NCBI RefSeq assembly: GCF_005887615.1 | Contig: NZ_VANS01000004.1 | Coordinates: 1-64,000 of the forward strand | DNA length: 64,000 nucleotides | Reading direction: 5' to 3' | Origin: Sulfitobacter sabulilitoris | GTDB taxonomy: Bacteria > Pseudomonadota > Alphaproteobacteria > Rhodobacterales > Rhodobacteraceae | Shown here: piece after piece, positions 7,377 to 50,838 of the stretch | How the letters are laid out: every line of letters starts with the position of its first letter | Position numbering within the stretch: the first letter of the stretch is position 1 | Program-made: the position numbers and the translations under genes | The notes under the pieces: generated by a model | The model's database searches: none | The model's input: the letters and a program-made list of their open reading frames with translations, nothing else | Told to the model about the DNA's origin: nothing

Positions 7377-7425
7377 GACGCCAACGGGCCGCAGTTCGTG
7401 ACGCACTGCAAGCTGCGTGTCTTCG

Positions 7426-7442
7426 GCTTGCGCTGCGCAAGC
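7426..7442 (+). terminator. Possible terminator hairpin after the NicO gene
   Basis: GCTTGCG-CTG-CGCAAGC forms a perfect 7-bp stem 50 bases after the NicO stop. A TTTTTT run occurs about 11 bases further on rather than immediately after the stem, so function as an intrinsic terminator is uncertain. Confidence 0.3.
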
Positions 7443-7560
7443 GGTATTCGGCTTTTTTGATCTTGTCACCCTGGGACCAGACCGATTACCGTTTTTCACT
7501 CTGCGAATATTAGGCAGTACAGTGAAAGCGTGCGGCTTTGAAAATGGCGAGGCGGATTTT

Positions 7561-8007
7561 GTGGCACCGGACCTGAGCTTCGATCACCTTGGTCTTGTCT
7601 GCTCGGACCTTTCTCTTGGGCGGTCGTTTTTATCCCGGACCATCAGCGTCGGAGATTGGACAGCAAGCTTCACCGATCCTATTCAAAAGGTGCACGTGCA
7701 ATTCGGCCGTGATCGGGGGGGGATGGTGTATGAACTCATCGCGCCAAGCGAGACCGGATCACCGATCGCAAAGTCTTTGAAATCCCGCCAGAACATCCTC
7801 AATCACGTCGCCTATCGCACCAATGATCTTGCCGCGGCTGCTGCACATCTCGAAGCAGCGGGTTGCCTTGCGGTGTCGATGCCCGATCCGGCTGTGGCCT
7901 TTGGCGGTGCCCTGATCCAGTTTTTTTACTCGCCGTTGGATTTCATCATCGAACTCATCGAACAGGATCAATCACGCCATATTTTCGAACCCCTGCCGCA
8001 GGATTGA
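7561..8007 (+). CDS. VOC (glyoxalase-fold) family protein
   Basis: From GTG 7561 the product is 148 residues and contains both beta-alpha-beta-beta-beta halves of the VOC fold. The first is DLSFDHLGLVCSDL to YELIAPS, the second ILNHVAYRTNDLAAAAAHLEAAG to LDFIIELIEQ. Metal-ligand candidates are His in FDHLG, His in ILNHVAY and Glu near the C-terminus, an arrangement like methylmalonyl-CoA epimerases and related enzymes. The open frame extends upstream to 7417, but that part does not look like VOC, and GCGAGG sits about 8 bases before the GTG. It is separated by 250 bases from the MBOAT gene, so a role with it is only possible. Substrate unknown. Confidence 0.75.
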   Translation: MAPDLSFDHLGLVCSDLSLGRSFLSRTISVGDWTASFTDPIQKVHVQFGRDRGGMVYELIAPSETGSPIAKSLKSRQNILNHVAYRTNDLAAAAAHLEAAGCLAVSMPDPAVAFGGALIQFFYSPLDFIIELIEQDQSRHIFEPLPQD

Positions 8008-8257: not shown

Positions 8258-9685
8258 ATGTCTTTGTTTTCACACGTGTTCATTTTATTCGCCGTTGTAT
8301 TCGTGCTGATGTTTCGATTGCGTTCGGACTACGTGTGGCGTGCCTCGGTGCTTTTGGCGGCAAACCTTCTGTTCGTGTCGGGCTTTTTCGCGTCGGTTGC
8401 GGGCGCGGTGCCGTTGGTCGGGTTCGTTGTATTGGGTTACCTGGCCGTCGTGTCGGTGCAAGCGATGCCGCACCGCGCATTGAGTTGGTCGTGGGTGGTG
8501 CTGTTCGTCGGGCTTCTGGCATGGTTTCAGGGCTACAGCCTGATCGCATTCGTGCCCGGCCTGCCCGTGGCCATATCGACCATCGGCCTGTCCTATATCC
8601 TGTTTCGGATCCTGCACATGGTTTTCGACGCCCGCGAAGGTGCCTTGCCGGATCGGATCAGCCCAGTCGATTATCTTAACTACACGGTCAATTTCCTTGC
8701 CTTCGTGTCAGGCCCGATTGACCGGTTTCAAACCTTCCGGGACAATTTCATGATCCCCGCTCCGGCCGACCCCACGGCGGTGCGCGCGGCGCTGGGGCGG
8801 GTGACGATCGGCTATGGCAAGGTGCTCATCCTGTCGGCCATTGCACTCTACGTCTTTGACAACATCGCGCCGCAGCTATTGGATGACGGAATGGCGGCAG
8901 GCCCCAAGCTGGTGGGCTTTTACTGCATCGCAGCGGCTGCCTATACCTTCTACCTCTATATGAACTTTTCGGGGTACATGGATATCGTGATCGGCATCGC
9001 GCGGCTTGCCGGGTTGGACCTGCCGGAAAATTTCAACAAACCTTTCGCCTCGCGCGGCATGATCGAATTCTGGAGCAGGTGGCACATCACCCTGTCGAAC
9101 TGGTTCAAGCAGTATTCTTTCATCCCGATCCTGCAAGCTCTGATGATGCGGTGGCCCTCGGCCGGTGCCGCGCCCTTTTTCGGCGTCTTCACCTATTTCG
9201 TAGTCTTCATGGTGCTGGGCATCTGGCATGGCTCGACGCCGGTCTTCGTGGCCTACGGCTTTGTGCTGGGCCTTGGCGTAAGCCTCAACAAGCTGTGGCA
9301 GGTCTTGTTGACCGCGCGGTTGGGCCACAAGCGGTTCCGTGGATTGTCGGCCAATCGCGTCTATACCTATGCGGCACGCGGGTTGACCATCGGATATTTC
9401 GCCATCGCGTTGACAGCCTTCTGGTTCGACCACGCCGAGGTCGCGGCGCTGACCGAACGCTTCCGGCTGACCGGATGGCTTCTGGCGCTCGGGCTGCTTA
9501 GCCTTGGATGGGCGATGATCGCGCTGCTGATGGACATGGCGTCGGGGCTGACGCGCTGGCGGTGGGATTGGCAATCGGCGCCCGCCGGGCTGGCCTTTGG
9601 CGGCATGGCCGGCATCCTCTATACCTGCATCACCGCGCAGGCCATCCTCAACAAGGGGGCTGGGTTTGTCTATGCGGATTTCTGA
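8258..9685 (+). CDS. MBOAT family membrane O-acyltransferase
   Basis: This is a 475-residue polytopic membrane protein with about 10-12 hydrophobic segments. Diagnostic MBOAT motifs are present: the loop IEFWSRWHITLSNWFKQY (about residues 270-287) and the invariant His in MVLGIWHGSTP (about residues 320-330). Such enzymes (DltB, AlgI, PatA) move an acyl group from a cytoplasmic donor to a glycan outside the membrane. It overlaps the SGNH gene by 14 bases and is followed by a carrier protein and an FkbH-like enzyme. That makes a carrier-protein-bound donor, as in DltB, more likely than acyl-CoA. Confidence 0.9.
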   Translation: MSLFSHVFILFAVVFVLMFRLRSDYVWRASVLLAANLLFVSGFFASVAGAVPLVGFVVLGYLAVVSVQAMPHRALSWSWVVLFVGLLAWFQGYSLIAFVPGLPVAISTIGLSYILFRILHMVFDAREGALPDRISPVDYLNYTVNFLAFVSGPIDRFQTFRDNFMIPAPADPTAVRAALGRVTIGYGKVLILSAIALYVFDNIAPQLLDDGMAAGPKLVGFYCIAAAAYTFYLYMNFSGYMDIVIGIARLAGLDLPENFNKPFASRGMIEFWSRWHITLSNWFKQYSFIPILQALMMRWPSAGAAPFFGVFTYFVVFMVLGIWHGSTPVFVAYGFVLGLGVSLNKLWQVLLTARLGHKRFRGLSANRVYTYAARGLTIGYFAIALTAFWFDHAEVAALTERFRLTGWLLALGLLSLGWAMIALLMDMASGLTRWRWDWQSAPAGLAFGGMAGILYTCITAQAILNKGAGFVYADF

Positions 9686-10766
9686 TCTGAAAACCGTACT
9701 GTGGCAAATGCTGCTGCTGGTGATGAGCTTTGTCGCGCTCAGCGCCGTTTTGCTGGGGCTGTCGTTGCTGGTCTTGCCGCCGCCCGATCGGATCACCCCG
9801 ATCGATACCTTTCGCGCCGGCGCCACCGTCTATTCCACGCCGCCGCGTCTGATCTATTATGGCCGGAAAAGCCTGCGAAACGAAGGCCCCAAGGTCATTC
9901 TTTTGGGGTCCAGCAACACGCAGGTCGGATTCGACCGGCAGGCGCTTGCCGACAGGATGGAAGGAATGGCGGTTCACAACCTGGGCATCGGCGATGCCAA
10001 CATCACCGAGATTGCACAGATTGCCGATCTGGCGCTGTCCTCAATCGGGTCCGACCGGATCAAGGATCAGGTCTTTGTTATCGGCATCTGGTACGCGACC
10101 TTCGTGGATAATGCCAATCGCTGGTCCTCGGGCGATGCGCTCCGTTTTGAGACGGATATCGACCGGGAGCGGTATCGCTACGGTTTTCAGCGCGGTGGCG
10201 TGAACGGTCCGAAGGTATGGATCTCGGACCGCGATGCCGACATCGCAGCGGTCCTTGTCCATCCCTTGATTGCGCTGGAAAAGGGCATCCGGATCGTGAC
10301 AGCGGATTTGCGCAGCCTGTTTTTCGTGCGCCCGCCCCGGATAGACACGCAGACGCGCAACACGATGACACCAAGCAAGGCGCAGAAAGCCGCCGCGCTG
10401 GCCTATCGGGCAGGCTACATGAAATCGGAACGGCTTTCGGGCGAACAGTATGATGTTCTTGATCGTCTCGTGCGTGACCTGACGGGGCAGGGCGCGCATG
10501 TGGTCGTGGCCGACCTTCCGATCCCTGACTGGCATGCGCAGGGCCTGCCCTATCACGCCGACCACCGGGAGAGGATCGCCCAGGTCGTGGCGGGCCTGAC
10601 CGGGGTGGAGCGTTTCGACTACGTCGATCTGCGCCATCTCGATGATCCCGACAGTTTCTACGACGATGCGCATGTCCGGCCGCGCGATTTGGGGCCGTGG
10701 GTCGATGCGCTTGCCGCGCGTCTCGAAACTTTCGCGCCGACTCGCATCACCTCAGCAACCGATTGA
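9672..10766 (+). CDS. Membrane-anchored SGNH/GDSL-like protein, DltD/AlgX-type MBOAT partner
   Basis: From ATG 9672 the product is 364 residues. One N-terminal membrane anchor (about residues 8-33) precedes an extracytoplasmic SGNH-type domain. The block I equivalent is VILLGSSNTQVGFD with the putative nucleophile Ser. The C-terminal catalytic pair appears as FYDDAHVRP (Asp and His three apart). In MBOAT systems such proteins (DltD, AlgJ/AlgX, PatB) complete acyl transfer to the acceptor. The start overlaps the MBOAT stop by 14 bases; the longer frame upstream lies inside the MBOAT gene and is discarded. The acceptor is not known. Confidence 0.8.
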   Translation: MRISDLKTVLWQMLLLVMSFVALSAVLLGLSLLVLPPPDRITPIDTFRAGATVYSTPPRLIYYGRKSLRNEGPKVILLGSSNTQVGFDRQALADRMEGMAVHNLGIGDANITEIAQIADLALSSIGSDRIKDQVFVIGIWYATFVDNANRWSSGDALRFETDIDRERYRYGFQRGGVNGPKVWISDRDADIAAVLVHPLIALEKGIRIVTADLRSLFFVRPPRIDTQTRNTMTPSKAQKAAALAYRAGYMKSERLSGEQYDVLDRLVRDLTGQGAHVVVADLPIPDWHAQGLPYHADHRERIAQVVAGLTGVERFDYVDLRHLDDPDSFYDDAHVRPRDLGPWVDALAARLETFAPTRITSATD

Positions 10767-10778
10767 AGGGACAATGAC

Positions 10779-11018
10779 ATGGACGACACGCAGGTTTCCG
10801 AGACCCTCTACGAGATTTTCAACGACTTCTTCGAACTTGACCGCTCCGAATTCGGTCCCGATCTGACAGCGGACCAGGTGGATGGCTGGGACAGTCTCAA
10901 CCACATCCGTCTGATGCTGAACATCCAGCAGAATTTCGGGGTCAAGTTTTCGTCCGGTGAAATCAGTGATCTCAAGAACGTCGGCCAGCTTGCCAGCCTG
11001 ATCGCCGCGAAAACCTGA
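10779..11018 (+). CDS. Acyl carrier protein
   Basis: This is a 79-residue acidic carrier protein. The phosphopantetheine attachment site is Ser39 in DGWDSLNHIRL, inside the usual four-helix pattern. It lies 12 bases after the SGNH gene and 14 bases before the FkbH-like gene. This suggests it is charged by FkbH and used by the MBOAT, matching DltC in dlt operons. It is unlike fatty-acid AcpP, which has a DSLD motif and a different neighbourhood. Confidence 0.9.
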   Translation: MDDTQVSETLYEIFNDFFELDRSEFGPDLTADQVDGWDSLNHIRLMLNIQQNFGVKFSSGEISDLKNVGQLASLIAAKT

Positions 11019-11032
11019 GGGAGCCTGCGCGT

Positions 11033-12946
11033 ATGAGCCTCGACCTGTACCTTGACCTGGGCTGGCTTCCCCGACCGCCGTCCGATCTGAACAAGATCAT
11101 CAAATCGGTGCGCGACGCGGGCCCGGCCACCGCAGAGGCATTGCGCGGGCTGGCTCAATTCGGGCTGAACGAACTGCAGTTGAACAAGGTCGCGCGCGCC
11201 CTGTCGGACGCACGCGACGGTGGCGTCGACCTCAAACCGCTGATCCCGCTCAAGGTCGCGCTGCTGAGCAATACAACCACCGAATTCCTTAGTCCTGCGA
11301 TGATGGCGACGGGGTTACGGTACGGGTTCGCGACCGACCTTGTCCTGGCGCCCTATGGACAGGTGGTTCAGGAACTGCTTGATCCCCAGTCCATGACCTA
11401 TGCCGCGGATCCGGATGTGATCGTGATATCGCTGGATCACCGTGGGCTGAACCTGACGGCGGTGCCGGGCGACGTCGATGCGGCGGCTGCCGGGCTCGCG
11501 GCGTCGCTTGACCAGATAGAGACCCTGAAGGCTGCGATCGAACAGAATTCCCGCGCGGTCGCTATGTTCCAGACCGTCGCTCGCCCGGCAGAGCCGGACC
11601 TGGGTTCGCTCGATCTTGGCGTGCCCGGAACGTGGCGCCAATTGACCCATGACTTCAACCGCGCGTTGGCCGACATGCTGACCGGAACGCCGCATCTGCT
11701 GCTCGATACCGCCGGTCTGGCCGACACTGTGGGGCTTGCCACCTGGCACGATCCGGGGCTGTGGCACATGGCGCGGGTTCCCTTTTCCAACCGTGTGCTG
11801 CCGCTTTATGCCGATCACATCATGCGGGTGATCGCGGCATGGCGCGGCAAAAGCCGGCGCTGTCTCGTGCTGGATCTGGACAATACGCTTTGGCACGGGG
11901 TGATCGGCGACGATGGGCTGGACGGAATTCGCCTGGCGGAAGGCGACCCGGTCGGAGAGGCGCACAGGGATGTTCAGGACCGCGCGCTGCAATTCCGCAG
12001 TCAGGGCGTGGTTCTGGCCGTGTCGTCAAAGAACGACGACGCCGTTGCCCGAACCGCCTTTCGCGATCATGCTGAAATGGTCTTGAAGGAAGATCACATC
12101 GCCGTTTTCCAGGCAAACTGGCGCGACAAGGCGACCAATATCCAGGCGATCAGCGATGATCTGGCCTTGGGGCTGGAATCGCTGGCGTTTCTTGACGACA
12201 ATCCCGCCGAACGCGGCTTGATCCGCGAGGCCCTGCCGCGTGTCGGTGTGCCCGAATTGCCGGAGGATCCGGCGCTATACGTGCGCACCCTCGTGGCCAG
12301 CGGTCTTTTCGAGGCGACAACGTTTTCAGACGAGGATCGCCGACGGGCCGAGGATTACCAAAGCAACTCCAAGCGCGTGGCGTTGCAGGCGTCAGTCACC
12401 GACATCGGGGAATACCTGCGCTCTCTGGACATGGAGTTCGCGGTTCTTCCCTTTGACGCGCCGGGGCGCGCGCGGATCGCGCAACTGATCAACAAGTCCA
12501 ACCAGTTCAACTTGACCACGCGGCGCTATTCCGAGGCCGATGTCGCCGCGATGGAGGATGATTCAGGGCTCTTGACCCTCCAGATACGGCTCAGGGATCG
12601 GTTCGCCGATAACGGCATGATCAGCGTCGTCATCTGCCGGACCGACGGCGCGACATGGGAGATCGACACCTGGCTGATGAGTTGCCGCGTCTTGGGCCGC
12701 CGGGTCGAGCGGGCCATCCTGCAGGTTCTGAAGGACGCGGCGCAGGCGGCAGGCATCACGACGCTGCGCGGGCGCTACATTCCGACGGACCGCAATGGCA
12801 TGGTGGCGCAGCACTACGCGCAGCTGGGCTTTGGCCTCGTGGAAACCAGAGAGGACGGCACGACCCTGTGGTCGGTCGAGGTTGCCGATCTTCCCGATCA
12901 GGAGGTCATCGGGACGATATCCCGTCAAACGGCACCCTCGGCCTGA
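11033..12946 (+). CDS. FkbH-like HAD-superfamily protein (HAD-IIIC)
   Basis: The 637-residue protein has three parts. An N-terminal ~260-residue region is of SGNH-like type. The HAD core follows, with motif I CLVLDLDNTLWHGVIGDDG (about residues 277-295), motif II LAVSSKN and motif IV SLAFLDDNPAERG. The C-terminal part is GNAT-like, with WLMSCRVLGRRVERAIL and HYAQLGFG. FkbH proteins take a glyceryl group from 1,3-bisphosphoglycerate onto a carrier protein, as in methoxymalonyl-ACP pathways. With an ACP encoded 14 bases upstream, glyceryl-ACP is the simplest predicted product. None of the methoxymalonyl oxidation or methylation genes is nearby. Confidence 0.85.
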   Translation: MSLDLYLDLGWLPRPPSDLNKIIKSVRDAGPATAEALRGLAQFGLNELQLNKVARALSDARDGGVDLKPLIPLKVALLSNTTTEFLSPAMMATGLRYGFATDLVLAPYGQVVQELLDPQSMTYAADPDVIVISLDHRGLNLTAVPGDVDAAAAGLAASLDQIETLKAAIEQNSRAVAMFQTVARPAEPDLGSLDLGVPGTWRQLTHDFNRALADMLTGTPHLLLDTAGLADTVGLATWHDPGLWHMARVPFSNRVLPLYADHIMRVIAAWRGKSRRCLVLDLDNTLWHGVIGDDGLDGIRLAEGDPVGEAHRDVQDRALQFRSQGVVLAVSSKNDDAVARTAFRDHAEMVLKEDHIAVFQANWRDKATNIQAISDDLALGLESLAFLDDNPAERGLIREALPRVGVPELPEDPALYVRTLVASGLFEATTFSDEDRRRAEDYQSNSKRVALQASVTDIGEYLRSLDMEFAVLPFDAPGRARIAQLINKSNQFNLTTRRYSEADVAAMEDDSGLLTLQIRLRDRFADNGMISVVICRTDGATWEIDTWLMSCRVLGRRVERAILQVLKDAAQAAGITTLRGRYIPTDRNGMVAQHYAQLGFGLVETREDGTTLWSVEVADLPDQEVIGTISRQTAPSA

Positions 12947-18906: not shown

Positions 18907-19101
18907 ATGTCTTACACTGTCAAACTGATCACGGGATTCATCGGAACCGCCTTGTTGCTGGTCTTTATCGGCGGCCTGTCGCACAGCGTGTCGTCCGGGT
19001 TCGCGGGGTTCATGGGCGGTCTGCCGTTCATGATCATCGCCATAATCGTCTGCGCTGCCGCGGTCTATGATTTCTGGGATGAATGTGTTCGCAAGAAATG
19101 A
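18907..19101 (+). CDS. Small two-segment membrane protein
   Basis: This 64-residue hypothetical protein has two hydrophobic segments (about residues 7-27 and 35-55) and a charged tail ending WDECVRKK. The ribosome site AAAGGA lies 6 bases before ATG, and its stop overlaps the next start as ATGA, so it appears to be a real cistron of this operon. No family recognised; it may assist the transporter. Confidence 0.7.
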   Translation: MSYTVKLITGFIGTALLLVFIGGLSHSVSSGFAGFMGGLPFMIIAIIVCAAAVYDFWDECVRKK

Positions 19102-20057
19102 CCAAGCCGCGTCTCTGGATCACACGCCGTCTGTCCGATGCCACGCTGGAACGCGCCGCGCGCGACTATGATGTCGTGATCAACCATGCCGATCTGCCAG
19201 GTACGGCGGACGACATCATCGCGGCCAGCCATGCCTTCGACGCAATCATCCCCTGCCACTCGGAGCATTTCACGGCACCGGTCGTCGCGGCGCTTGGCGA
19301 CCGTCTCAAGATCGTTGCGAACCATTCGGTCGGTGTCGATCACTGCGATCTGCCCGCCTTGAAAGCGCGCGGTATCACGGTCACGAACACGCCCGACGTT
19401 CTGTCGGATGCGACCGCAGAACTGGCCATGCTGCTGATGTTGGGCGCGGCCCGTCACGCTGTCGCGGGGGACCGGATCGTGCGCAGCGGCGCGTGGGATA
19501 CCTGGTCGCCATCCTTCATGGTCGGCAAGCAAGTCACCGGTGCACGGCTGGGGATCGTCGGAATGGGCCGCGTCGGACGCGCGTTTGCCGCCAAGGCGCG
19601 CGGTTTCGACATGGATATCCACTATTACAACCGCTCCGAACTGCCCGCCGATCAGGCAGGGGGCGCGACCTATCATGACAGCATCGAAAGCCTGCTTGGC
19701 GTCGCGGATTTCCTGTCGCTGCATTGCCCGGCCACGCCCGAAACCACGGATCTGATGAATGCGGAACGGCTGGCGCTTTTGCCCAAGGGGGCCGTCGTGG
19801 TGAATTCCGCACGCGGCGCGCTGGTGGACGAAGACGCGCTGATGGCCGCGCTTGACGCCGGCCACCTGTCGGGCGCAGGGCTTGATTGTTTCAAGGTCGA
19901 ACCCGGCGGGAACCCCGCTTTCGCACGCTATGACACGATCTTCATGCTGCCGCATATCGGCAGCGCCACGCGGAAAACCCGTGATGCGATGGGGTTTCGG
20001 GCGCTCGACAACCTCGATGCCTTTTTCGCGGGGCAAACCCCGCTGGATATGCTGTAG
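19098..20057 (+). CDS. D-2-hydroxyacid dehydrogenase (glyoxylate/hydroxypyruvate reductase-like)
   Basis: The start at 19098 (ATGA overlap) gives 319 residues. The NAD(P)-binding Rossmann motif is LGIVGMGRVGRAF (about residues 150-162). The catalytic triad is Arg in NSARGALVDE, Glu in FKVEPGGNP and His in LPHIGSATR. It interconverts 2-oxo and D-2-hydroxy acids. As the last gene of the TRAP-amidase operon it probably reduces or oxidises the acid released by the amidase. GTAs such as GyaR/GhrB are the nearest functional analogues. Confidence 0.9.
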   Translation: MTKPRLWITRRLSDATLERAARDYDVVINHADLPGTADDIIAASHAFDAIIPCHSEHFTAPVVAALGDRLKIVANHSVGVDHCDLPALKARGITVTNTPDVLSDATAELAMLLMLGAARHAVAGDRIVRSGAWDTWSPSFMVGKQVTGARLGIVGMGRVGRAFAAKARGFDMDIHYYNRSELPADQAGGATYHDSIESLLGVADFLSLHCPATPETTDLMNAERLALLPKGAVVVNSARGALVDEDALMAALDAGHLSGAGLDCFKVEPGGNPAFARYDTIFMLPHIGSATRKTRDAMGFRALDNLDAFFAGQTPLDML

Positions 20058-20101: not shown

Positions 20102-21334
20102 TTAGCGTGCGGCAGGCCGGTCAAGAATGTCGCCATAAAGACCCAACAGCGCGTCGCACCACGTCTCGTCGCTGAGCGACAGATCGCGGGCGTTCGACCG
20201 GGCGGTTCGCGAAAGCCGGGCCACAAGCCCGTCGTCATGGGCAAGAGTGACGAGCGCCCTTGCCAGATCATCGCGGTCGCCCGCCGCAAAGCGCAGGCCC
20301 ATGCCGCCGGTGTCGATGTCGCCGGCCAGCAGCATACTGTCCGAGATCAGCACCGGTATCCCTGACATCAGTGCTTCGGCGGGGGCCAGCCCGTAGGGCT
20401 CTGGCCCCAAGGTCGGCGCAACCAGAATCCGGGCATCGGCCATGATACGGCACAGCCCGGCGCGGTCCTGCCAGCCATCGAAGCGGTGCTCGGGATAGTC
20501 CCGTGCCAAAGCCTCCTTGTCCTGACCATCGCCGACAAAACGGATCTGCACCCCGGCCTGTCGCCCCGCACATGCGAGTAACCGAACGCCCTTGTAGCTG
20601 TGAATGTCGCCGACATAGATGAGATCGCTGTTGCGTTCCGCCGCGACCGGAGAAGCCAGAAAGGCCTGCGCCGGGTTGGGAATGACGCGGATGCCGCCGG
20701 GCGATCGCCGCGCAAACAGGCGCGCTTGCATAGCGTCATGCAGCAGGATGGTTGTTACCCCGGGGGCCAGTTGTCGGCGCGCGGTATTCTGCACTGTCTG
20801 CCGGGCCACCCGCCAGAGTTTGTGGCCATAGTTCCGCTTGTCGCAATTTCGCATGACGCAGGAAAAGGAGAGCGGAGCGCGTCCACAGGTCTGACCCGAG
20901 CGGAAGTCGAAGAAAGCGCCATTGGGGCAGGCAAGGAAGTAGTCATGCGCATGCATCACGCTGCGCGATCGAACCCGCCGCAGCGGCGCCAGCACCGACG
21001 GCGACAACGTCTGATGATAACCGTGAAGGTGATAGATCGTGGCGGCGGTATCGTTTTGCGCGATCCAGTCCGCAAGCAACGTCGATGACGCCCGGTTCCA
21101 AAGCCCCGCAAGGGCCGCCGAGACACGCCCTCCCTCCAGCAGCCTTTGGCCGCCGACCGCGACCTGGCTCACCCCCTTTGGCAGGTCGTGTGTGGCGTCG
21201 CCGCTGAAAAAGGTGACGGGCACGCCGCGCGCCGACAAAAGCGCCGCCTGCGATACCGCCAGTTGCGACGCGCCGCCCCGCACCGTCGAAAAATCGCTGA
21301 TGATGACAACCCTGTCCGGACAGGACGGTTTCAT
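20102..21334 (-). CDS. Glycosyltransferase family 4 (GT-B fold)
   Basis: The 410-residue protein has an N-terminal acceptor domain with FSTVRGGASQLAVSQAALL. The C-terminal donor domain contains the retaining-GT motif EPYGLAPAEALMSGIPVLIS (the E-x7-E pattern). A central LIYVGDIHSYKG strand starts the donor half. It probably adds a sugar to the exopolysaccharide repeat unit on the cytoplasmic face; the donor is not identifiable. It is the last gene of a minus-strand set and overlaps the preceding GT2 gene by four bases (ATGA). Confidence 0.88.
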   Translation of the reverse strand: MKPSCPDRVVIISDFSTVRGGASQLAVSQAALLSARGVPVTFFSGDATHDLPKGVSQVAVGGQRLLEGGRVSAALAGLWNRASSTLLADWIAQNDTAATIYHLHGYHQTLSPSVLAPLRRVRSRSVMHAHDYFLACPNGAFFDFRSGQTCGRAPLSFSCVMRNCDKRNYGHKLWRVARQTVQNTARRQLAPGVTTILLHDAMQARLFARRSPGGIRVIPNPAQAFLASPVAAERNSDLIYVGDIHSYKGVRLLACAGRQAGVQIRFVGDGQDKEALARDYPEHRFDGWQDRAGLCRIMADARILVAPTLGPEPYGLAPAEALMSGIPVLISDSMLLAGDIDTGGMGLRFAAGDRDDLARALVTLAHDDGLVARLSRTARSNARDLSLSDETWCDALLGLYGDILDRPAAR

Positions 21335-22212
21335 TTGAATTCGAGCAGGCGTTCTGGCGACATCCGGCCACGGACAAGATCGGCCAGCGCGGTCAGATTG
21401 CCCTTGAGCCTGCCCCAGCGGTCTATCTCGGGTTCCGGCTTTAGCGATTTCACCAAATTGCTGATCAGGTTCCGCGACAGGATCGTCAGCACGCGGCGCA
21501 AGCTCATGGTCCCCTTGGACAACAGATACAGCGGATTGGCGACCTGGGCATAGCCCAGTGGCACGCCCTTGCTGCGTCCGATTTTCGTGCCCAGATGAAC
21601 GCCGCGCAGTTCCGGCGATTTCACGATCCGGCCATGGGCCGCCATCTGCCGCGAGAAATCGACATCTTCAAGCCATGCATACAGCTTGAGCCGCTCATCA
21701 AGCCGGATTTCGTGATCGACAAGAGGACGCGCCCTGACGGCCATGTTGCATCCGTAGCAATTATAGATGTCTTCAAGCGCCGGGTCAGCGGGGGCAGATG
21801 GTTCGGCAAGCCGCCGCTGTGCATGACCAAAGTCCAGCCCGGGCCCGTGAATCCCGTCCTCGAGCACGGTTCCGGTCACCATCACGACATCGGGGTTCTG
21901 TGCCAACAGCCGTTCAAGGGTTTGCAGGTAATCGGGAGCCATCAGGAAATCGTCATCGAGAAACAAGAGCACGTCATCACGGCCCAGGTGCTGCAAGGCG
22001 GTATTGCGTTGAAGCACGAGTCCCCGCTCGCTTGGGATGACCCGGACAGGAAACGGCAAGTCTTTCAGCGCGGCGGGGTCGATGTCGGTGTCGCTGGCGA
22101 CGACGACAAGCATGAGATCGGGCAGACGTGTCTGGCGGGCAATATCCCTGACGGTCGACGCCACGACCAGCGGCCTGTTCGTCGTCGGAATGGATACGAC
22201 CAGGCCCATCAT
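21331..22212 (-). CDS. Glycosyltransferase family 2 (GT-A fold)
   Basis: From ATG 22212 the product is 293 residues; GGGGT lies about 8 bases upstream. The frame extends to 22251, but that extension is not GT2-like. The N-terminus MGLVVSIPTTNRP, the strand RVIPSERGLVLQRNTAL and the metal-binding LLFLDDDFL (DxD) identify a GT2. The C-terminal region has a WLEDVDFSRQMAAHG segment with the ED pair typical of the catalytic base. Likely an exopolysaccharide glycosyltransferase. Confidence 0.88.
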   Translation of the reverse strand: MMGLVVSIPTTNRPLVVASTVRDIARQTRLPDLMLVVVASDTDIDPAALKDLPFPVRVIPSERGLVLQRNTALQHLGRDDVLLFLDDDFLMAPDYLQTLERLLAQNPDVVMVTGTVLEDGIHGPGLDFGHAQRRLAEPSAPADPALEDIYNCYGCNMAVRARPLVDHEIRLDERLKLYAWLEDVDFSRQMAAHGRIVKSPELRGVHLGTKIGRSKGVPLGYAQVANPLYLLSKGTMSLRRVLTILSRNLISNLVKSLKPEPEIDRWGRLKGNLTALADLVRGRMSPERLLEFK

Positions 22213-22341
22213 GCAGTACCCCGCCGCATGGCCGCAGTCATGCCGAAACACGCCGACTGCAATCTCTGCAATTGACCGGGAATGCCGGGCGGAGTAGTTT
22301 CGACGCCAAAGCTGACATGAAAAACAACAAGAGCAGAACTC

Positions 22342-22479
22342 ATGTTTTTTGACCTACAGGACAACGCCTCCCGGTGTCGCCGGGTGTTGAACGCAGTCTC
22401 GCCCGCGATACTTCGGTCCACCGTGATCGGTGCATGCGCACTCAGCTGGCTGGCTGTCATCTGGCTCCTCGCATTCTGA
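22342..22479 (+). CDS. Small single-span membrane protein (45 residues)
   Basis: An ATG at 22342 opens a 45-codon frame, beginning MFFDLQDNAS, with an amphipathic basic middle and a C-terminal membrane segment LRSTVIGACALSWLAVIW. It is on the opposite strand to its neighbours and too short for routine gene calling. A second small protein at 48657-48821 has the same layout and a matching membrane segment (9 of 18 identical), which argues that both are genuine. Ribosome site weak (AAGAGCAG). Function unknown. Confidence 0.5.
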   Translation: MFFDLQDNASRCRRVLNAVSPAILRSTVIGACALSWLAVIWLLAF

Positions 22480-22497
22480 TCCGGCGAATGGGTGTGG

Positions 22498-23268
22498 CTA
22501 GCGGGCGCCGTCACCGAGCAGCATTACTTTTATAGTTTTCAGAATAATACCGAGATCTTTCCCGAAGGTGCGGGTCCGGACGTACTCGACGTCCATCGCA
22601 ACCCGTCTCTCATAGGTCGTCAGGCTTCGACCGTTGACCTGCCAGTAACCGGTGATCCCCGGCTTGATGGAGTGATAATCCGACAGGTATTCGCCGTAGT
22701 GGTGTGTCTCTGACGCGACGATGGGCCGGGGCCCCACAATCGCCATGTCGCCAATCAGGACGTTCCAGAACTGGGGCAATTCATCCAGGCTGGTCTTGCG
22801 AAAGAACTCGCCGATGCAGGTGATCCGGGGATCGTTGTCCAGCTTCTGGTTGGCGCGCCACTGCGCGGCGGCCTCGCGGTCATTCTCAAGAAGCGCGGCA
22901 AGCCGTTCTTCGGCATCCACGGCCATCGTCCTAAATTTCAGACAATTGAATTCCCGGCCATCTTTTCCGACACGCTTGTGCGCGAAAAACACCGGACCGC
23001 CTTCCGAAATAAGGATCGCCAGAGCGATGACGGCAATAAACGGCGCAAAAAACAGGAGTGCCAAAACGGCAAACCCTTTATCAAATGACGATCTCGCAAA
23101 ACTCTTGAGAATGTTAACCTGACGTACCTTCGATGGCAGTGCAGGGACACAAAAAACCCTGGTTTTGGAATCGCCCGCTCGGAGGTGAATATCAGATTCC
23201 ATGATGTAAGCATCTAGTTTCATTAAAAAAAAGAACGCCAAAAACGCCAAAATGCGAATCGGACGCAT
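22498..23268 (-). CDS. Undecaprenyl-phosphate sugar-phosphate transferase (ExoY/WcaJ-like)
   Basis: The initiating enzyme of polysaccharide repeat-unit assembly transfers a sugar-1-phosphate to the lipid carrier. One membrane segment (KGFAVLALLFFAPFIAVIALAIL) precedes the cytosolic catalytic domain. That domain has CLKFRTMAVDAEERL, FFRKTSLDELPQFWNVL and GDMAIVGPRPI, and ends with GITGYWQVNGRS, all hallmarks of the bacterial sugar transferase family. The N-terminus is uncertain: a TATACT hexamer at 23275-23280 would put transcription start at the first ATG, so ATG 23223 or 23202 (234 residues, near ExoY's length) may be the true start. It lacks the WbaP multi-span N-terminal domain. Confidence 0.9.
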   Translation of the reverse strand: MRPIRILAFLAFFFLMKLDAYIMESDIHLRAGDSKTRVFCVPALPSKVRQVNILKSFARSSFDKGFAVLALLFFAPFIAVIALAILISEGGPVFFAHKRVGKDGREFNCLKFRTMAVDAEERLAALLENDREAAAQWRANQKLDNDPRITCIGEFFRKTSLDELPQFWNVLIGDMAIVGPRPIVASETHHYGEYLSDYHSIKPGITGYWQVNGRSLTTYERRVAMDVEYVRTRTFGKDLGIILKTIKVMLLGDGAR

Positions 23269-23337
23269 TCGATGAGTATAGCTTAAAACCCCTCACGTTT
23301 CGGCAAAAACTTTACAAAGTGTTAACTTGCCCCCCTC

Positions 23338-23358
23338 TTGTCCCCGGTTTGGAGACAA
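23338..23358 (-). terminator. Hairpin downstream of the Wzy-like gene
   Basis: Read on the minus strand, TTGTCTCC-AAACC-GGGGACAA forms an 8-bp stem with one wobble pair, about 110 bases after the polymerase-gene stop and before the sugar-transferase gene. No T-run follows, so it may be a processing site or a weak terminator. Confidence 0.3.
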
Positions 23359-23469
23359 TCATCGGGCTTATTCTTGAAAACCCCAGAAAATCGCCTTGAA
23401 AAAAACACAATTCCGTCTGGGGGCGATTCAATCTCTGATTATTTTGGGCGGCGGTGGGACACTTGGCAA

Positions 23470-24900
23470 TCACCACGTCGGTGCCTGCGATGTTCCTGCC
23501 GTGAACCCGGCTGTTGCAGACCCCGCACGAGGTCTTTGGGTCCGGGCGGCCGTTTCGCGGGCCACCACGCAGATGGACGCAAACGCGACCAGGAACAGGG
23601 TCGGGTCGGGCACCGTAGCCGACACCAGCATCGAGGCAAACAACGTGAGCGCGCCGATACGGGCCGCGTAGAATGCCTTTTTCGTGTCCCTTGGCGCAGG
23701 GCCGATACCTCTGCCGAAGGCCAATGTCAGAAACCCGGCAAACGCCAAGGTTCCCGGAACGCCGACGCTGCCCAGAAGAACCGTGGCAAACCCGTTCGCA
23801 CGCAGCGATCCCACCCCGGCGCCCATCCCCCAGGTGTTGAAGAATGCGTCGATGCCGCTTTGTGCCCATGCGCCGCGTTCCAGCCCCGAGAGTGAATCGC
23901 CCTTGGACAGCACCAGGCGATCCAGGATATCCGATGTCAGGTCCGCCGCTGGTGTGAGCAGGAAAACCAGACAGCCGACAAGCGCCGCCACAGCCAGCGC
24001 GATAATGAAAACGTGACCGAACACGCGCGACATTCCGGTGCTCAGATAAACGGGGGCGTGCAGAACGATCAACAGCAACGCCGCCGCGAGCGACAACATC
24101 GCGGTGCTGGACAGCGCCATGAGCGCGCACGCCAGGCTGGCGAACGCCAGTACCCCATCGCGAAACCCATGACCGACCAAAAAGGACATGGCAAAGAAGC
24201 CGAAGAACGCGGAGGATGCGGCCCCGAAACCGGAGGCTTCGGCAAATCCGCCGATGATGCGGGCAAACCCCGATACGGTGTGATGATTGTTGAGGTTGTA
24301 ATCCGCGGTTCGGATCAGTGCCAGAAGCGGGTCGAGCTGCGCGAAATCCGCCAGTCCCAGGACAAGGTTGATGACCCCAGCCGCGACGAGGCCGGACAAC
24401 ACAAAGCCAAGGCCGCGCCGGCGCATGACGAATACGCAGGTCAGAAAGAAGCCGGTAGAGAGCAGAATGTAGAAGGACTGCGCGATGTTCGAATTGCCGG
24501 GGGACAGCGGCCACATGGTGGACGGGTAGAAGACGCTGACCTGGGTGCCCTTCGAGGACACGCTCATCGGGAAGACCAGGAACTGGCCTTCGAACAGGCG
24601 GACCAGGACGAACCCCGAAAACAACGCGTAGCCGGAAAAGAGCAACAGGCACAGCCCGGCGGTCGGCAACCCCTCTTGCGGGACGCCGCGGCGCTGGCTG
24701 ACCCAGCGCACGAGCAGCAGGCCGATCGTCAGGATCGCCAGCAGGTTGGCGATGATGATCGACAGCCCGCCCGCCACCAGAGCCGCGAACATGCCAAAGG
24801 GCAGCATGGCGACCGTAACCGGCACGCCGTTGTCGGCATTGCGCATGCACAGCGCCAGCCACAATAGCACAAAGGCTGCCGCCAGAGGATAAACGACCAT
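23470..24900 (-). CDS. O-antigen polymerase/ligase-like membrane protein (Wzy/ExoQ-like)
   Basis: The 476-residue protein has about 11-12 membrane segments with one large periplasmic loop in the second half (around ADLTSDILDRLVLSKGDSLSGLERGAW). This is the layout of the Wzy_C superfamily that includes ExoQ and WaaL. The first ~45 residues are two hydrophobic stretches. In this locus, with Wzx, Wzc-like and ExoF-like proteins present, it most likely polymerises repeat units rather than ligating O-antigen to lipid A. Divergent from the methyltransferase gene across 150 bases. Confidence 0.82.
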   Translation of the reverse strand: MVVYPLAAAFVLLWLALCMRNADNGVPVTVAMLPFGMFAALVAGGLSIIIANLLAILTIGLLLVRWVSQRRGVPQEGLPTAGLCLLLFSGYALFSGFVLVRLFEGQFLVFPMSVSSKGTQVSVFYPSTMWPLSPGNSNIAQSFYILLSTGFFLTCVFVMRRRGLGFVLSGLVAAGVINLVLGLADFAQLDPLLALIRTADYNLNNHHTVSGFARIIGGFAEASGFGAASSAFFGFFAMSFLVGHGFRDGVLAFASLACALMALSSTAMLSLAAALLLIVLHAPVYLSTGMSRVFGHVFIIALAVAALVGCLVFLLTPAADLTSDILDRLVLSKGDSLSGLERGAWAQSGIDAFFNTWGMGAGVGSLRANGFATVLLGSVGVPGTLAFAGFLTLAFGRGIGPAPRDTKKAFYAARIGALTLFASMLVSATVPDPTLFLVAFASICVVARETAARTQRPRAGSATAGFTAGTSQAPTW

Positions 24901-25050
24901 CGGTTTTCCCGTTCCTTTGCCTGCCAGTGTACACCATGCGCCCGCGCCGCCAACAAATCTGCGCCGGCGGTGGGAAAATCACTTTGTTCGGGGCCGGACC
25001 TGCACAATACTCGGCGGGACCGGAGCCATTTCGAGTGGAGACCTGAAACC

Positions 25051-25857
25051 ATGCGACCGCGTCAAATGGCCAAGTCCGCGCTGACCGTGGCGCGGCGCAC
25101 AGTTGGATTGCCGGCGGCGACGTTCTGGGGGCGTCTGATGGCCAGCGGCATCCGCCCTCCCGCCTTTGTCGGGGCCTATCCCGATTTCGACACCGCGCGG
25201 GCCAACGCGCCGAAAACCGCGCCCAATACCTATGATGACGACACTGTCGCACCGCTCAATTTCAAGGTGATGTGCGAGGTCCACATCTGGGATTATCCAG
25301 TCATTTTCTGGCTCGAACGTCTGTTGAAACCGGATATGCACGTGCTCGACGCGGGCGGGCATTTCGGCACGAAATATATCGCTTTCCAACATATTCTGGC
25401 GCTTGGTGCCATTCGGTGGACCGTTCAGGATTTGCCCGCAACGATACGTGGCGCGCGCGCGGGACAGCGGCGCGGGGATGTGCCCGGTGAAATCAGGTTT
25501 CTGGATGACGTCACCCAGGCGGAAAGCGCCGATATCCTGCTCATGTCCGGCTTGCTGCAATACCTCGACAGACCGATCGCGGAACTTGTCTCGGCGTTAC
25601 CTGCCCGGCCGCCGCATATCGTTCTCAACAAGGTCGCGACCCGCGATGGTCCGACTGTCGTCACCCTCGAAAAGATCGGAACGGCGCGTGTGCCCTACCA
25701 GATACGCAACCGCGAGGCGTTCGAAGCCGACCTGAGAGCGATGGGCTATGTGATCCGTGACAGCTGGACGATCCCGTCGCTGGCGCGGGTGATCGCAACG
25801 CATCCCGCACTCGGGGCCAGCACCAGCCGCGGATACTACCTGGAGCGGGCGGCATGA
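25051..25857 (+). CDS. Putative SAM-dependent methyltransferase (TIGR04325-like)
   Basis: The start at ATG 25051 gives 268 residues. The N-terminal block PPAFVGAYPDFDTARANAP and the SAM-binding strand MHVLDAGGHFGTKYIAFQHIL resemble TIGR04325 proteins, which occur in polysaccharide and lipopolysaccharide clusters. A later strand ADILLMSGLLQYLDRPI fits the fold. It would methylate a sugar of the polymer or an intermediate; the target is unknown. The upstream part of the open frame (from 24970) overlaps the divergent promoter region and is discarded. Confidence 0.72.
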   Translation: MRPRQMAKSALTVARRTVGLPAATFWGRLMASGIRPPAFVGAYPDFDTARANAPKTAPNTYDDDTVAPLNFKVMCEVHIWDYPVIFWLERLLKPDMHVLDAGGHFGTKYIAFQHILALGAIRWTVQDLPATIRGARAGQRRGDVPGEIRFLDDVTQAESADILLMSGLLQYLDRPIAELVSALPARPPHIVLNKVATRDGPTVVTLEKIGTARVPYQIRNREAFEADLRAMGYVIRDSWTIPSLARVIATHPALGASTSRGYYLERAA

Positions 25858-25882
25858 CAGTCCCGCCGGGGCGGTGGGCCGA

Positions 25883-27670
25883 ATGAAACGACCGATTGCC
25901 ATAGCTGCCGTGGTGGTGGCCGCCGCTGCGGTCGGGCTGGCGCTGGGTGCGCCCTGGCGCGACCTTCTTGGCACGGCCAGGGATGTGGTGGCCTGGCAGG
26001 TGCAGGCAGGACAACCGGATCACGCCGACGCGATGATCGCCATGCCCGACGGGGTGCGGCTGGCGACGGATGTGTATCTGCCGGGGGAAACCGGCAGGCG
26101 TCCGACTGTTCTCATGCGGCTTCCTTACGGAAAAAGATCCTACGGCGAGGTCAGGTTCTGGGTCGATCAATTGACCCGCCGGGGCTTTGCCGTGGTCGCG
26201 CAGGACATGCGCGGGCGGCATGCATCCGAGGGGGTGTTCGCACCCTATCCCAACGCCGGGCGGGACGGCGCGGCAACGCTCGACTGGATCGTCGCGCAGC
26301 CGTGGTCGAACGGGCGGGTGGGCACGCTCGGGTGTTCCGCGCTGGGCGAGGCGCAGTTGATGCTGGCCGCCCAGGGTCATCCCGCACATCGCGCAATGGT
26401 CCCGATCGCTGCGGGCGGGGCGATTGGCTCTGCCGGGGGCAATCGCGACTACTTCAGCGTATTCGAGGGCGGAATTTTCGCCCTGGCCACCGGTGCGGGC
26501 TGGTTCGGGGCACAGGGCGGCAAGACGCCCGCGCGCTCCGGTCCTCATCCGATCGATCCCGCGTCCACGCTGGACCACCTGCCGATCATCGACATCGTCC
26601 GGCAGATGCGGCCCGACCCGACCGACTACGAGGCGTTCTTGCGCAATTTCGATGTGCCCGGCTATTGGCGCGATGCGGGCTATGTCACCGGCAAGGAACG
26701 TTTTGCCACGCCGTCGCTTCTTGTCGATACCTGGCACGACCCCGGCATCCGGTCCACCCTCGACCTGGCCGAGACATTGGCCCGCGGCGGGGCGCCGGTC
26801 AGTACGATCATCGCCGCAGGGACGCATTGTGGGTATCTGGGCAGCGACGGTGATACCGTGGTGGGCGATCTGGCGGTCAGTCCGGAAACAACTTTCGGCT
26901 TTGTCGATGCGATCGTCGGGTTTCTTGACCATCACCTGGCCGATGGCCCGGCACCGCAGTTGCCGCCGCTCAGCTATTACTCGCTGGTCGAAGACCGTTG
27001 GCGCAGCGCGACACGCTGGCCACCGCAGGCCGCGACCCTCACACGCTTGTATCTGACCGGGGATGCAGCGCTAAGCCCTGCGCGACCGACAGGGCCCGCC
27101 GCACCGCGCCGGTTGCGGTCCGATCCCGCGGATCCGGTGCCAAGCATCGGCGGCGCCCTGTGTTGCACCGGCGATCCGGAGGCGCGCAGCGGGCCGGTCT
27201 TCCAGAATGCGATCGAGGGGCGCGATGATCTGCTGCTCTATTCGTCCGAGCCGCTGCGCGCACCCTTGTTGGTTGCGGGCCCCATCCGCGCCCGGCTTCG
27301 GATTTCAGCGGATGTTCCCGATACCGATGTGGTCCTGCGCCTGACGGACGTCGATCCGGAGGGTCGCTCCCTGCTTGTTCAGGAAGGCGCGCTCAGGCTG
27401 CGCTACCGCGATGGCTTTGACCGGCCCAGGCTGATGAAGCCGGGCGAGATCTATGACGTGACCATCGAAATCCGCGATATCGCCTACCTGTTCCGCGCCG
27501 GCCATCGCTTGCGGCTTCATGTTGCGGGCAGCAGTTTTCCCCGCCTGGCGCGCAATCTGAATACCGGCGGGACGAACCATTCCGAAACGGCGATGACCGT
27601 GGCCAATATCGCCGTGCACAGCGACACTGCGCAGGCGTCCGAACTGATCCTTTATGCGTTGCCCGACTGA
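25883..27670 (+). CDS. CocE/NonD family serine hydrolase, exported or membrane-anchored
   Basis: From ATG 25883 the product is 595 residues. An N-terminal hydrophobic helix (about residues 3-25) acts as signal or anchor. The alpha/beta-hydrolase domain follows: MPDGVRLATDVYLPG, the nucleophile loop GTLGCSALGEAQLM with Ser, Asp in LLVDTWHDPGI, and His in AAGTHCGYLG. A C-terminal jelly-roll domain (X-Pro dipeptidyl-peptidase C-terminal type) ends the protein. CocE-type enzymes cleave esters or acyl-amino-acid bonds. Inside an exopolysaccharide/NRPS locus it could trim acyl or peptidyl groups on the polymer. Its last 19 bases overlap the convergent GT4 gene. Confidence 0.85.
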   Translation: MKRPIAIAAVVVAAAAVGLALGAPWRDLLGTARDVVAWQVQAGQPDHADAMIAMPDGVRLATDVYLPGETGRRPTVLMRLPYGKRSYGEVRFWVDQLTRRGFAVVAQDMRGRHASEGVFAPYPNAGRDGAATLDWIVAQPWSNGRVGTLGCSALGEAQLMLAAQGHPAHRAMVPIAAGGAIGSAGGNRDYFSVFEGGIFALATGAGWFGAQGGKTPARSGPHPIDPASTLDHLPIIDIVRQMRPDPTDYEAFLRNFDVPGYWRDAGYVTGKERFATPSLLVDTWHDPGIRSTLDLAETLARGGAPVSTIIAAGTHCGYLGSDGDTVVGDLAVSPETTFGFVDAIVGFLDHHLADGPAPQLPPLSYYSLVEDRWRSATRWPPQAATLTRLYLTGDAALSPARPTGPAAPRRLRSDPADPVPSIGGALCCTGDPEARSGPVFQNAIEGRDDLLLYSSEPLRAPLLVAGPIRARLRISADVPDTDVVLRLTDVDPEGRSLLVQEGALRLRYRDGFDRPRLMKPGEIYDVTIEIRDIAYLFRAGHRLRLHVAGSSFPRLARNLNTGGTNHSETAMTVANIAVHSDTAQASELILYALPD

Positions 27671-28761
27671 TCGGCCAGCACGTCTTCGACGACGCGCGCG
27701 AAGTCGCGGCGAAACCGCTCCGCCCCGAACCCGGCCGCGTGGTCGCTGATCCCGACGGGATCGAAATCTGCCGCGCGGCGTTCGAAGCGGGCCACCACCT
27801 CGCGGATGGCGGTCGTATCCTGACGGTCAAAAAACAAGCCCGTCTTGCCGTCAACGACGCTGTCACACACACCGCCGCGCCCATAGGCCAGCACCGGCGT
27901 GCCGCAGGCCATCGCTTCGACCGGGACAATGCCGAAATCCTCCTCCGCCGGGAAAATCAGCGCTTTGGCCCCTTGGTAGAGGGCGGGCAGATTCTCGCCC
28001 GCGACCCGGCCTAGAAGCTCGACGTTGGAGGGCAGATTGCGTTCGAGCTCGGCACGCTGGCTGCCATCCCCGACGACCAGCAGGCGATGATCCAGATCGC
28101 GAAACGCTTCGATCACCAGATCCGCGCGCTTGTATGGCACCAACTGCGACACGAAGAGATAATAGTCGCGCGTGCCCGCGTCGCGGGGCAGGCGGTAGGC
28201 CTCAAGATCGACCGGCGGATGCACGACGGTCGCATCCCTGTTGTAAAACCGCCGTATCCGCCGTGCGATAAAGGTGGAATTGGCGACAAAGCGGTCCACC
28301 CGCGCGGCCGAGGTTACATCCCAGACCCGCAAACGGTGGGCCAGCCCCGAGAAATACATCCGGCCCAGCCACCCCAGTCGGTCGCGGTAAGGTCCGTAAT
28401 GATCCCAGATATAGCGCATCGGCGTATGAACATAGCATACGTGGGCGGCATCCGGCGGCACGATCACCCCTTTGGCGGGGCCGCTCTCGGAAGAGATTAC
28501 CAGATCGTACCCGGTCAGGTCCAACTCCTCCAACGCGCGGGGCATAAAGCCCAGGTACTTTTGGTAGTGCTTGCGGGCACCGGGCAGACGGGCGATGAAT
28601 GTCTCGGTGATCGGGCGGCTGTTCAACACATCGGACAAAGAGGCACGATCGGCGACATGAGTGTAGATATCGGCCTGCGGATAGAGCCGGACAAGTTCTT
28701 CCAGAACACGCTCGCCGCCGCGCATTCCGACCAGCCAATAGTGAACGATGGCAACCTTCAC
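27652..28761 (-). CDS. Glycosyltransferase family 4 (WbaZ-like)
   Basis: The 369-residue GT-B enzyme has N-terminal MKVAIVHYWLVGMRGGERVLEEL, the acceptor-domain segment CYVHTPMRYIWDHYG and the donor-domain motif EEDFGIVPVEAMACGTPVLAYG (E-x7-E). The GGERV and HTPMRY segments are typical of the WbaZ-type mannosyltransferase branch, though the donor sugar is not certain. It lies 15 bases downstream of the Wzc-like gene in the same operon. Confidence 0.88.
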   Translation of the reverse strand: MKVAIVHYWLVGMRGGERVLEELVRLYPQADIYTHVADRASLSDVLNSRPITETFIARLPGARKHYQKYLGFMPRALEELDLTGYDLVISSESGPAKGVIVPPDAAHVCYVHTPMRYIWDHYGPYRDRLGWLGRMYFSGLAHRLRVWDVTSAARVDRFVANSTFIARRIRRFYNRDATVVHPPVDLEAYRLPRDAGTRDYYLFVSQLVPYKRADLVIEAFRDLDHRLLVVGDGSQRAELERNLPSNVELLGRVAGENLPALYQGAKALIFPAEEDFGIVPVEAMACGTPVLAYGRGGVCDSVVDGKTGLFFDRQDTTAIREVVARFERRAADFDPVGISDHAAGFGAERFRRDFARVVEDVLADQSGNA

Positions 28762-28776
28762 GGCGTGTCCATTCCG

Positions 28777-50551: not shown

Positions 50552-50838
50552 CTCTCGATCCGTCCGCGTACTGCCGGCCGGGATCCAAACTTGAAAAATA
50601 TCACGTCCGCCAGCCCCCCTGTCAGGGTCATGCAAGCGCGCCGAAATTCGGCGATGTGCCTCAAGTCATGGTGAATTTCCCACGGTTGGCAAGGGAAATG
50701 CAGTCGCGCGGCATAGTGCCGGGGCGCCGCGAAAAGGAGCCTGGCCTTTGACCGCGCGGTTCCGCGGGCCTTTGGTTGCTGGCCCGTCGAAACAGGCCCC
50801 CGCCGGCGGTCGGGGCACCGGCGCGCCGTGACGCTGAT

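Follow-up and report, generated by a model that had tools for sequence, protein, structure and literature searches.

The first 64,000 nucleotides of contig NZ_VANS01000004.1 of Sulfitobacter sabulilitoris (assembly GCF_005887615.1), hereafter the window, carry a compact cassette in which an FkbH-type enzyme and a stand-alone acyl carrier protein (ACP) lie beside a membrane acyltransferase of the MBOAT family and a putative SGNH-type protein. A preliminary description made from the sequence alone had reported four adjacent genes from 8258 to 12946 that parallel dltB, dltD, dltC and dltA, with an FkbH-like enzyme in the place of DltA. All four appear in the open reading frame (ORF) list of the window where they had been placed, on the + strand and in the order MBOAT, SGNH, ACP and FkbH, and their spacing is operon-like: the MBOAT and SGNH genes overlap by 14 bases, and gaps of 12 and 14 bases separate SGNH from ACP and ACP from FkbH, respectively. 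The span beginning at 8258 does hold these four genes but leaves out a VOC-superfamily gene that lies 250 bases upstream of the MBOAT gene on the same strand. For the SGNH gene, the listed ORF opens at TTG 9597, the best start is the internal ATG 9672, and the stop lies at 10766. A promoter and terminator scan of the cassette gave signals not above those of shuffled sequence. The features are as follows.

7417-8007, + strand: VOC-superfamily metalloprotein (PF13669, 48.9 bits), with a likely true start near GTG 7561
8258-9685, + strand: MBOAT protein, DltB-related, 475 amino acids (PF03062, 57.6 bits), with candidate catalytic His324 at 9227-9229 in a WHG motif
9665-9682, + strand: acyl-shuttle motif FVYADF at the MBOAT C-terminus, with putative acceptor Tyr472 at 9671-9673
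9672-10766, + strand: predicted membrane-anchored SGNH protein, DltD-like, 364 amino acids, with candidate residues Ser81, Asn110, Asp331 and His334 (from alignment and fold matches)
10779-11018, + strand: acyl carrier protein, 79 amino acids (PF00550, 27.8 bits), with phosphopantetheine site Ser39 at 10893-10895
11033-12946, + strand: FkbH-type glyceryl transferase/phosphatase, 637 amino acids (TIGR01686), with Asp281 (11873-11875), Asp283 and Cys551 (12683-12685)

The FkbH protein is the likely loading enzyme of the cassette, as judged from its family and conserved residues. It scores 295.8 bits against TIGR01686 (cut-off 146.65) and 43.7 bits against the FkbH_N domain PF21211 (cut-off 27), and none of the residues D281, D283, T285, K333, K366 and C551 varies among the 144 aligned rows, which comprise the window protein and 143 of 146 loci (a length filter dropped three) and count the window FkbH twice, locus L003 being the same gene. 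These residues include the HAD-type Asp-x-Asp motif (D281, D283) and the transfer cysteine (C551). Because these six residues are identical throughout, an active FkbH enzyme is expected; with a family score well over cut-off and the catalytic residues kept, the proposal of an FkbH-like loader in the DltA position is supported. The ACP passes the PF00550 PP-binding cut-off of 20.8 bits, its phosphopantetheine serine is invariant in 14 of 14 aligned sequences, and its best solved relative is 2lml, which we take to be the Geobacter GmACP3 of a 2011 paper.

The MBOAT protein exceeds the PF03062 cut-off of 27 bits and reaches 171 bits against the DltB family TIGR04091, which is under the cut-off of 375, so it is not a DltB equivalog; DltB is nevertheless its only solved relative at an E value of 0.001 or better. 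The pattern [GA]xWHG is present in 53 of 57 MBOAT ORFs near FkbH genes, and the window protein has WHG with His324. Its sequence ends in GFVYADF, matching FXYXXF, which the accessible portion of a 2025 paper (PMC12148441) describes as an acyl-shuttle motif that resides on DltX in the Dlt system and is fused to the MBOAT protein in other pathways. Among the 57 MBOAT ORFs of FkbH loci L036-L123, the window's own being excluded, 40 end in FXYXXF, compared with 2 of the 4199 other ORFs that are 100 amino acids or longer, and the looser ending [FIVLA]xYxx[FY] is found in 51 of 57 versus 4 of 4199. One of the six MBOAT ORFs without the motif is truncated by a contig end, and the FXYXXF control match in L104 overlaps the motif-less MBOAT ORF of its locus and could therefore belong to that gene, read in a different frame. 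The genome also encodes a second MBOAT protein (locus L001 1066-2490, 474 amino acids, PF03062 108 bits), which ends in the shuttle motif FIYFQF.

The second cassette protein may be a membrane-anchored SGNH protein with a DltD-like fold, an assignment that we make with low confidence from a structure model. At E 0.001, neither Pfam nor NCBIfam assigns it to a family, not even to that of DltD. Its AlphaFold model, built on four sequences, has a mean predicted local distance difference test (pLDDT) score of 59; the top Foldseek match of this model is the esterase EstL5, followed by DltD of Streptococcus pneumoniae (E 5.2e-4), and VIA-align pairs it with a GDSL enzyme at Z 16.1 and with OatA at Z 13.4. 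In the alignment, the protein has Ser81, Asn110, Asp331 and His334 in common with three Bradyrhizobium proteins. Iterating an SGNH profile over the loci gathered no more than five ORFs, the window's own gene accounting for two of them, and a class-wide search with such a profile matched only the genome of origin (1 of 385). A rough motif count found SGNH-like ORFs beside MBOAT in 23 of 53 loci, whereas 11 of 452 other ORFs fit the motifs; three Bradyrhizobium SGNH ORFs flagged beforehand are not part of this count.

To look for related gene sets, 15 aligned FkbH proteins were used to scan contigs, which gave at least 593 stretches, 586 of them encoding a relative. Locus counts rest on the best 80 of these at least 586 relatives and, where stated, on the 60 loci flanked on either side by 5 kb or more. 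Record titles place them in Alpha-, Beta- and Gammaproteobacteria, Acidobacteria, Eremiobacterota/Vulcanimicrobiota and Gemmatimonadetes, as well as Nitrospina, Anaerolineales and Verrucomicrobia. Within 5 kb of FkbH, ACP is present at 75 of the 80 loci, MBOAT at 53, VOC at 23, a class I methyltransferase at 18 and a MaoC-SDR fusion protein at 14, the last two families having themselves been chosen as frequent FkbH neighbours; at the 60 loci, the corresponding numbers are 58, 42, 21, 15 and 10. None of the five was found only at 5-9 kb in these 60 loci, whereas a sugar-epimerase family taken as comparison occurred within 5 kb at 7 loci and only beyond at 9. Of 20 control windows taken from the genome of origin, each 20 kb long, the MBOAT profile matched one, at the second MBOAT gene, and the VOC, ACP and FkbH profiles matched none. 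The search for the block in other genomes suggested by the preliminary description thus finds that related sets recur. The FkbH gene is, however, lacking in close relatives of the window: only weak partial FkbH matches (27% identity) occur in 3 of 60 other genomes of near relatives and none in 57, whereas FkbH matches at 1e-30 occur in 32 of 385 genomes of the class sample, the genome of origin included, and at 1e-60 in 21 of 295 Sphingomonas-group genomes.

The arrangement of the genes varies among these loci. For example, pSymB of S. meliloti 1021 carries VOC, MBOAT, a 409-amino acid protein, ACP and FkbH in the gene order of the window, with FkbH split over two reading frames (L039 11680-13742), whereas in strain ml47 FkbH is in one piece and the cassette adjoins genes for a capsular polysaccharide protein, an ABC transporter, RkpR and KpsF. 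Three Bradyrhizobium loci have FkbH, MBOAT, SGNH, ACP and VOC consecutively; Rhodobacteraceae bacterium SC52 has ACP, FkbH, MBOAT, a 358-amino acid protein and VOC; and in Tistrella mobilis the core genes are spread over both strands and accompanied by a methyltransferase. Paroceanicella carries ACP, FkbH, methyltransferase and VOC with no MBOAT recognised within the 26 kb examined, and annotated FkbH genes without MBOAT occur in Niveispirillum (with WcbI and a MaoC-SDR protein), Maritalea and Methylosinus (beside polyketide synthases). Six of the 60 plasmid matches listed, all from S. meliloti, have the FkbH match in two pieces, one of them over an insertion sequence element. In a FastTree phylogeny of FkbH (147 rows, 49 unlabelled), which the preliminary description had also proposed, 13 changes suffice to explain the MBOAT label, compared with 21.6 on average after shuffling; the label is clustered but does not form one clade and long branches meet, and we do not count the tree as evidence. 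The FkbH regions of four Streptomyces plasmids, mostly polyketide contexts, entered the analysis only as rows of this tree.

The VOC protein offers a candidate tailoring step. Its residues 1-42 have pLDDT values below 50, so that translation probably starts near GTG 7561. H57, E106, H130 and E179, invariant in 19 aligned VOC proteins of FkbH neighbourhoods, are taken as the metal site. In keeping with a VOC fold, Foldseek aligns the protein with glyoxalase I and with methylmalonyl-CoA epimerases; the closest solved relatives are likewise methylmalonyl-CoA epimerases, together with a clostridial glyoxalase, and the best NCBIfam match, the methylmalonyl-CoA epimerase family TIGR03081, reaches 26.1 bits, far under its cut-off of 114.95. 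E106 aligns with Gln of a Streptomyces epimerase and with Glu of the clostridial glyoxalase, and the structure model does not tell glyoxalase I from epimerase. The product of glyoxalase I is a 2-hydroxyacyl thioester, and the related fold epimerises acyl thioesters; because this chemistry acts on acyl thioesters, C2 epimerisation of glyceryl-ACP would fit, and by analogy the VOC protein may act on the ACP-bound acyl thioester as a C2 epimerase or isomerase. At the 60 loci, VOC and MaoC-SDR never occur together (0 of 60, p 0.011), whereas VOC and methyltransferase co-occur at 11 (p 0.001), both p-values being too favourable since the genomes are related by descent. This exclusion and this pairing suggest that one and the same ACP-bound acid is finished in different ways. 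Other FkbH neighbourhoods (L100, L059, L040 and L042) carry the methyltransferase or the MaoC-SDR protein, so that FkbH-ACP looks like a module whose partners can be swapped. The available text of PMC10143770 describes cyanobacterial nonribosomal peptide synthetase (NRPS) modules that methylate FkbH-loaded glycerate.

The cassette would work like Dlt and yet is not a Dlt system. It shares with the Dlt proteins (DltA, B, C, D and X) a DltB-related MBOAT, a candidate DltD-like SGNH fold, a dedicated carrier protein and a loading enzyme, and the presence of MBOAT, SGNH, ACP and loader in one operon supports the parallel drawn originally. However, Dlt has DltA, a D-alanine-activating ligase, which is found nowhere among the cassette ORFs and is replaced by FkbH; Dlt carries the shuttle motif on a separate DltX, whereas here it is fused to the MBOAT protein; and the cassette further differs in an MBOAT below the DltB cut-off, an extra VOC gene and a genome of alphaproteobacterial type. 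The preliminary description was right in its Dlt-like outline but had missed the VOC gene and the fused shuttle and left the DltX function unaccounted for. The O-acetylation systems PatA/PatB and AlgI/AlgJ/AlgX, as presented in the accessible portion of PMC12148441, also combine an MBOAT bearing a C-terminal FXYXXF with a separate SGNH protein but use acyl-CoA without a carrier protein, whereas the cassette has an ACP and a loader. FkbH and a stand-alone ACP, on the other hand, are shared with the glyceryl loading known from polyketide and NRPS pathways, among them those of methoxymalonyl-ACP, tetronates and aeruginosins (PMC7489565 and PMC10143770, in the parts available), but in the cassette their partner genes are those for MBOAT and SGNH; in the aeruginosins, FkbH and an MBOAT do occur in one NRPS pathway, acting on different parts of the product (PMC10143770, same part). 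In agreement with the preliminary description, no methoxymalonyl-pathway gene (dehydrogenase or O-methyltransferase) was found in the eight neighbours scanned with Pfam or, by eye, in the remaining ones. Likewise, no published description of such a system was found among open-licence papers; because only these were searched, absence from print is not proven. We regard the cassette as a real, widespread and apparently new variant of MBOAT-SGNH acylation.

What this variant probably carries out is transmembrane acylation of a cell-surface polymer by means of an FkbH-loaded ACP, an MBOAT-fused shuttle and SGNH transfer; the identity and stereochemistry of the acyl group and the acceptor are what we infer. 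FkbH would take the three-carbon acid of 1,3-bisphosphoglycerate, strip the other phosphate and load the glyceryl group onto the phosphopantetheine of the ACP, as its family and residues suggest. The VOC protein would then probably alter the stereochemistry at C2 or otherwise isomerise the acyl thioester, which is the weakest step of the scheme. At the cytoplasmic face, the MBOAT protein would take over the acyl group from the ACP and transfer it to Tyr472 in its C-terminal FVYADF motif; Tyr472 would hand it to Ser81 of the SGNH protein, and the latter would attach it to a hydroxyl group of a surface polymer, for which an exopolysaccharide or capsule is the likeliest candidate. The net design would be that of Dlt with FkbH replacing DltA and the DltX function fused into the MBOAT protein. 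The membrane route foreseen earlier gains support from the sequence, and that from glyceryl-ACP through Tyr472 and Ser81 to the polymer is supported because the residues and relatives of FkbH, ACP and MBOAT fit it. Because FkbH and ACP would draw an already activated acid from glycolysis, the ester would be paid for by 1,3-bisphosphoglycerate, and decoration of the cell surface would, if this is true, be tied to a glycolytic intermediate. Since an MBOAT-fused FXYXXF shares an operon with an ACP, a carrier-protein donor is joined here to a fused shuttle, designs that the 2025 paper, in its accessible portion, treats as separate (PMC12148441); together they would constitute a third donor logic for MBOAT-SGNH acylation.

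Several observations weigh against transmembrane acylation of a surface polymer from an ACP. The SGNH model is of low confidence, and DltD is absent from its 50 VIA-align rows; the 409-amino acid protein in the SGNH place of S. meliloti has no significant profile match to the window SGNH protein; fused-shuttle MBOATs are described as acyl-CoA users in the portion of PMC12148441 available; 18 of the 60 FkbH loci have no recognised MBOAT, so that FkbH-ACP has other uses too; the polysaccharide genes of the window begin 7 kb past the cassette; and in two Sphingomonas genomes the cassette lies, by eye, among flagellar-like genes. The typical use of a fused FXYXXF in acetyl-CoA systems (PMC12148441, same portion) and the 18 loci without MBOAT would both fit an ordinary acetyl-CoA-dependent acetylation pair lying next to an unrelated FkbH-ACP. 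This is very unlikely, given that the only solved relatives of the MBOAT at E 0.001 are DltB, whose acyl donor is a carrier protein, that MBOAT lies within 5 kb of FkbH at 42 of 60 loci and only farther away at none, and that the window genes touch or overlap. It is less credible still that FkbH and ACP feed a three-carbon unit to the NRPS-polyketide synthase (NRPS-PKS)-like protein encoded at 38423-48304: supply of such units is the known job of FkbH-ACP in polyketide clusters (PMC7489565, in the part available), and the window holds both this large ORF and a condensation-carrier-thioesterase protein, but the NRPS-PKS gene is 25 kb off on the opposite strand, and the cassette forms an operon with MBOAT and SGNH, the former recurring at 53 of 80 loci.

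Two further possibilities, both rather unlikely, keep the same machine and change either its cargo or its target. The glyceryl-ACP might be tailored before delivery according to the neighbouring genes, to an O-methylglyceryl group with the methyltransferase, to a pyruvyl or lactyl group with MaoC-SDR, and to an isomer or other product with VOC alone, as in the window. The methyltransferase (15 loci) and MaoC-SDR (10) genes within 5 kb of FkbH, the absence of any locus with both VOC and MaoC-SDR, and the methylation of FkbH-loaded glycerate in cyanobacteria speak for such tailoring, whereas the window core genes are accompanied by VOC only and 16 of the 60 loci show ACP and MBOAT without VOC, methyltransferase or MaoC-SDR. 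Alternatively, the acceptor might be a lipid, a periplasmic glucan or a protein glycan, for instance on flagellin, which would suit the fliL-, fliM- and flagellin-like genes around the two Sphingomonas cassettes and the lack of a glycosyltransferase within the window operon. Capsule export genes, on the other hand, adjoin the S. meliloti cassette, and among the 54 cassette loci that span 19 kb or more, 17 include a recognisable polysaccharide gene, compared with 1 of 20 control windows (p 0.03), a comparison whose control comes from one genome only and whose search tool, phmmer, is insensitive. The window itself encodes a sugar-phosphate transferase, glycosyltransferases and Wzc-, Wza- and Wzx-like proteins at 20102-32255 and 49070-50635.

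Transmembrane acylation from an FkbH-loaded ACP would make the cassette a source of candidate genes for the glycerate esters of bacterial polysaccharides. Gellan is a surface polysaccharide carrying an L-glycerate ester (PMC9737242, PMC9104527), and the available text of PMC9737242 names its glyceryltransferase activity without a gene, none being named in that of PMC9104527 either. A class of bacterial surface polymers may, tentatively, carry glycerate-derived esters made by a modular FkbH/ACP/tailoring/MBOAT/SGNH pathway, and the L-glycerate of gellan might arise in the same way. If so, VOC would be a C2 epimerase leading to L-glyceryl, the methyltransferase would lead to O-methylglyceryl and MaoC-SDR to lactyl groups. 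Because related cassettes are found across several environmental phyla and also in S. meliloti, a symbiont that has been studied in depth, the idea is open to testing. To find the gellan producer, the UDP-glucose dehydrogenase chain 4a7p, which we take to come from S. elodea, was compared with 295 genomes from the genus to which Sphingomonas sp. NFR15 belongs. None of them matches it exactly; the nine nearest differ from it at 5-11 of 435 residues, and of these nine only G676 belongs to the 21 genomes that have FkbH matches at 1e-60, an outcome that leans against a gellan link. In G676 and G710 (loci L167 and L168), FkbH, ACP and MBOAT lie amid fliL-, fliM- and flagellin-like ORFs, and in one of them a flagellin-like ORF adjoins MBOAT.

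Other genes of the window complete the picture of the region. The NRPS-PKS-like ORF, recognised by eye and 3293 amino acids long, sits among the polysaccharide genes, an unusual mix, and the condensation-carrier-thioesterase protein (32715-35222) also lies inside the polysaccharide region. An ORF at 19083-20057 reads by eye as a D-2-hydroxyacid dehydrogenase of the hydroxypyruvate reductase type; its neighbours are transporter and amidase genes, and the cassette is 6 kb away. The protein encoded at 35176-36762, within the same polysaccharide cluster, has a GINT1_N domain (106 bits), named after the plant-type glucosamine inositolphosphorylceramide transferase.

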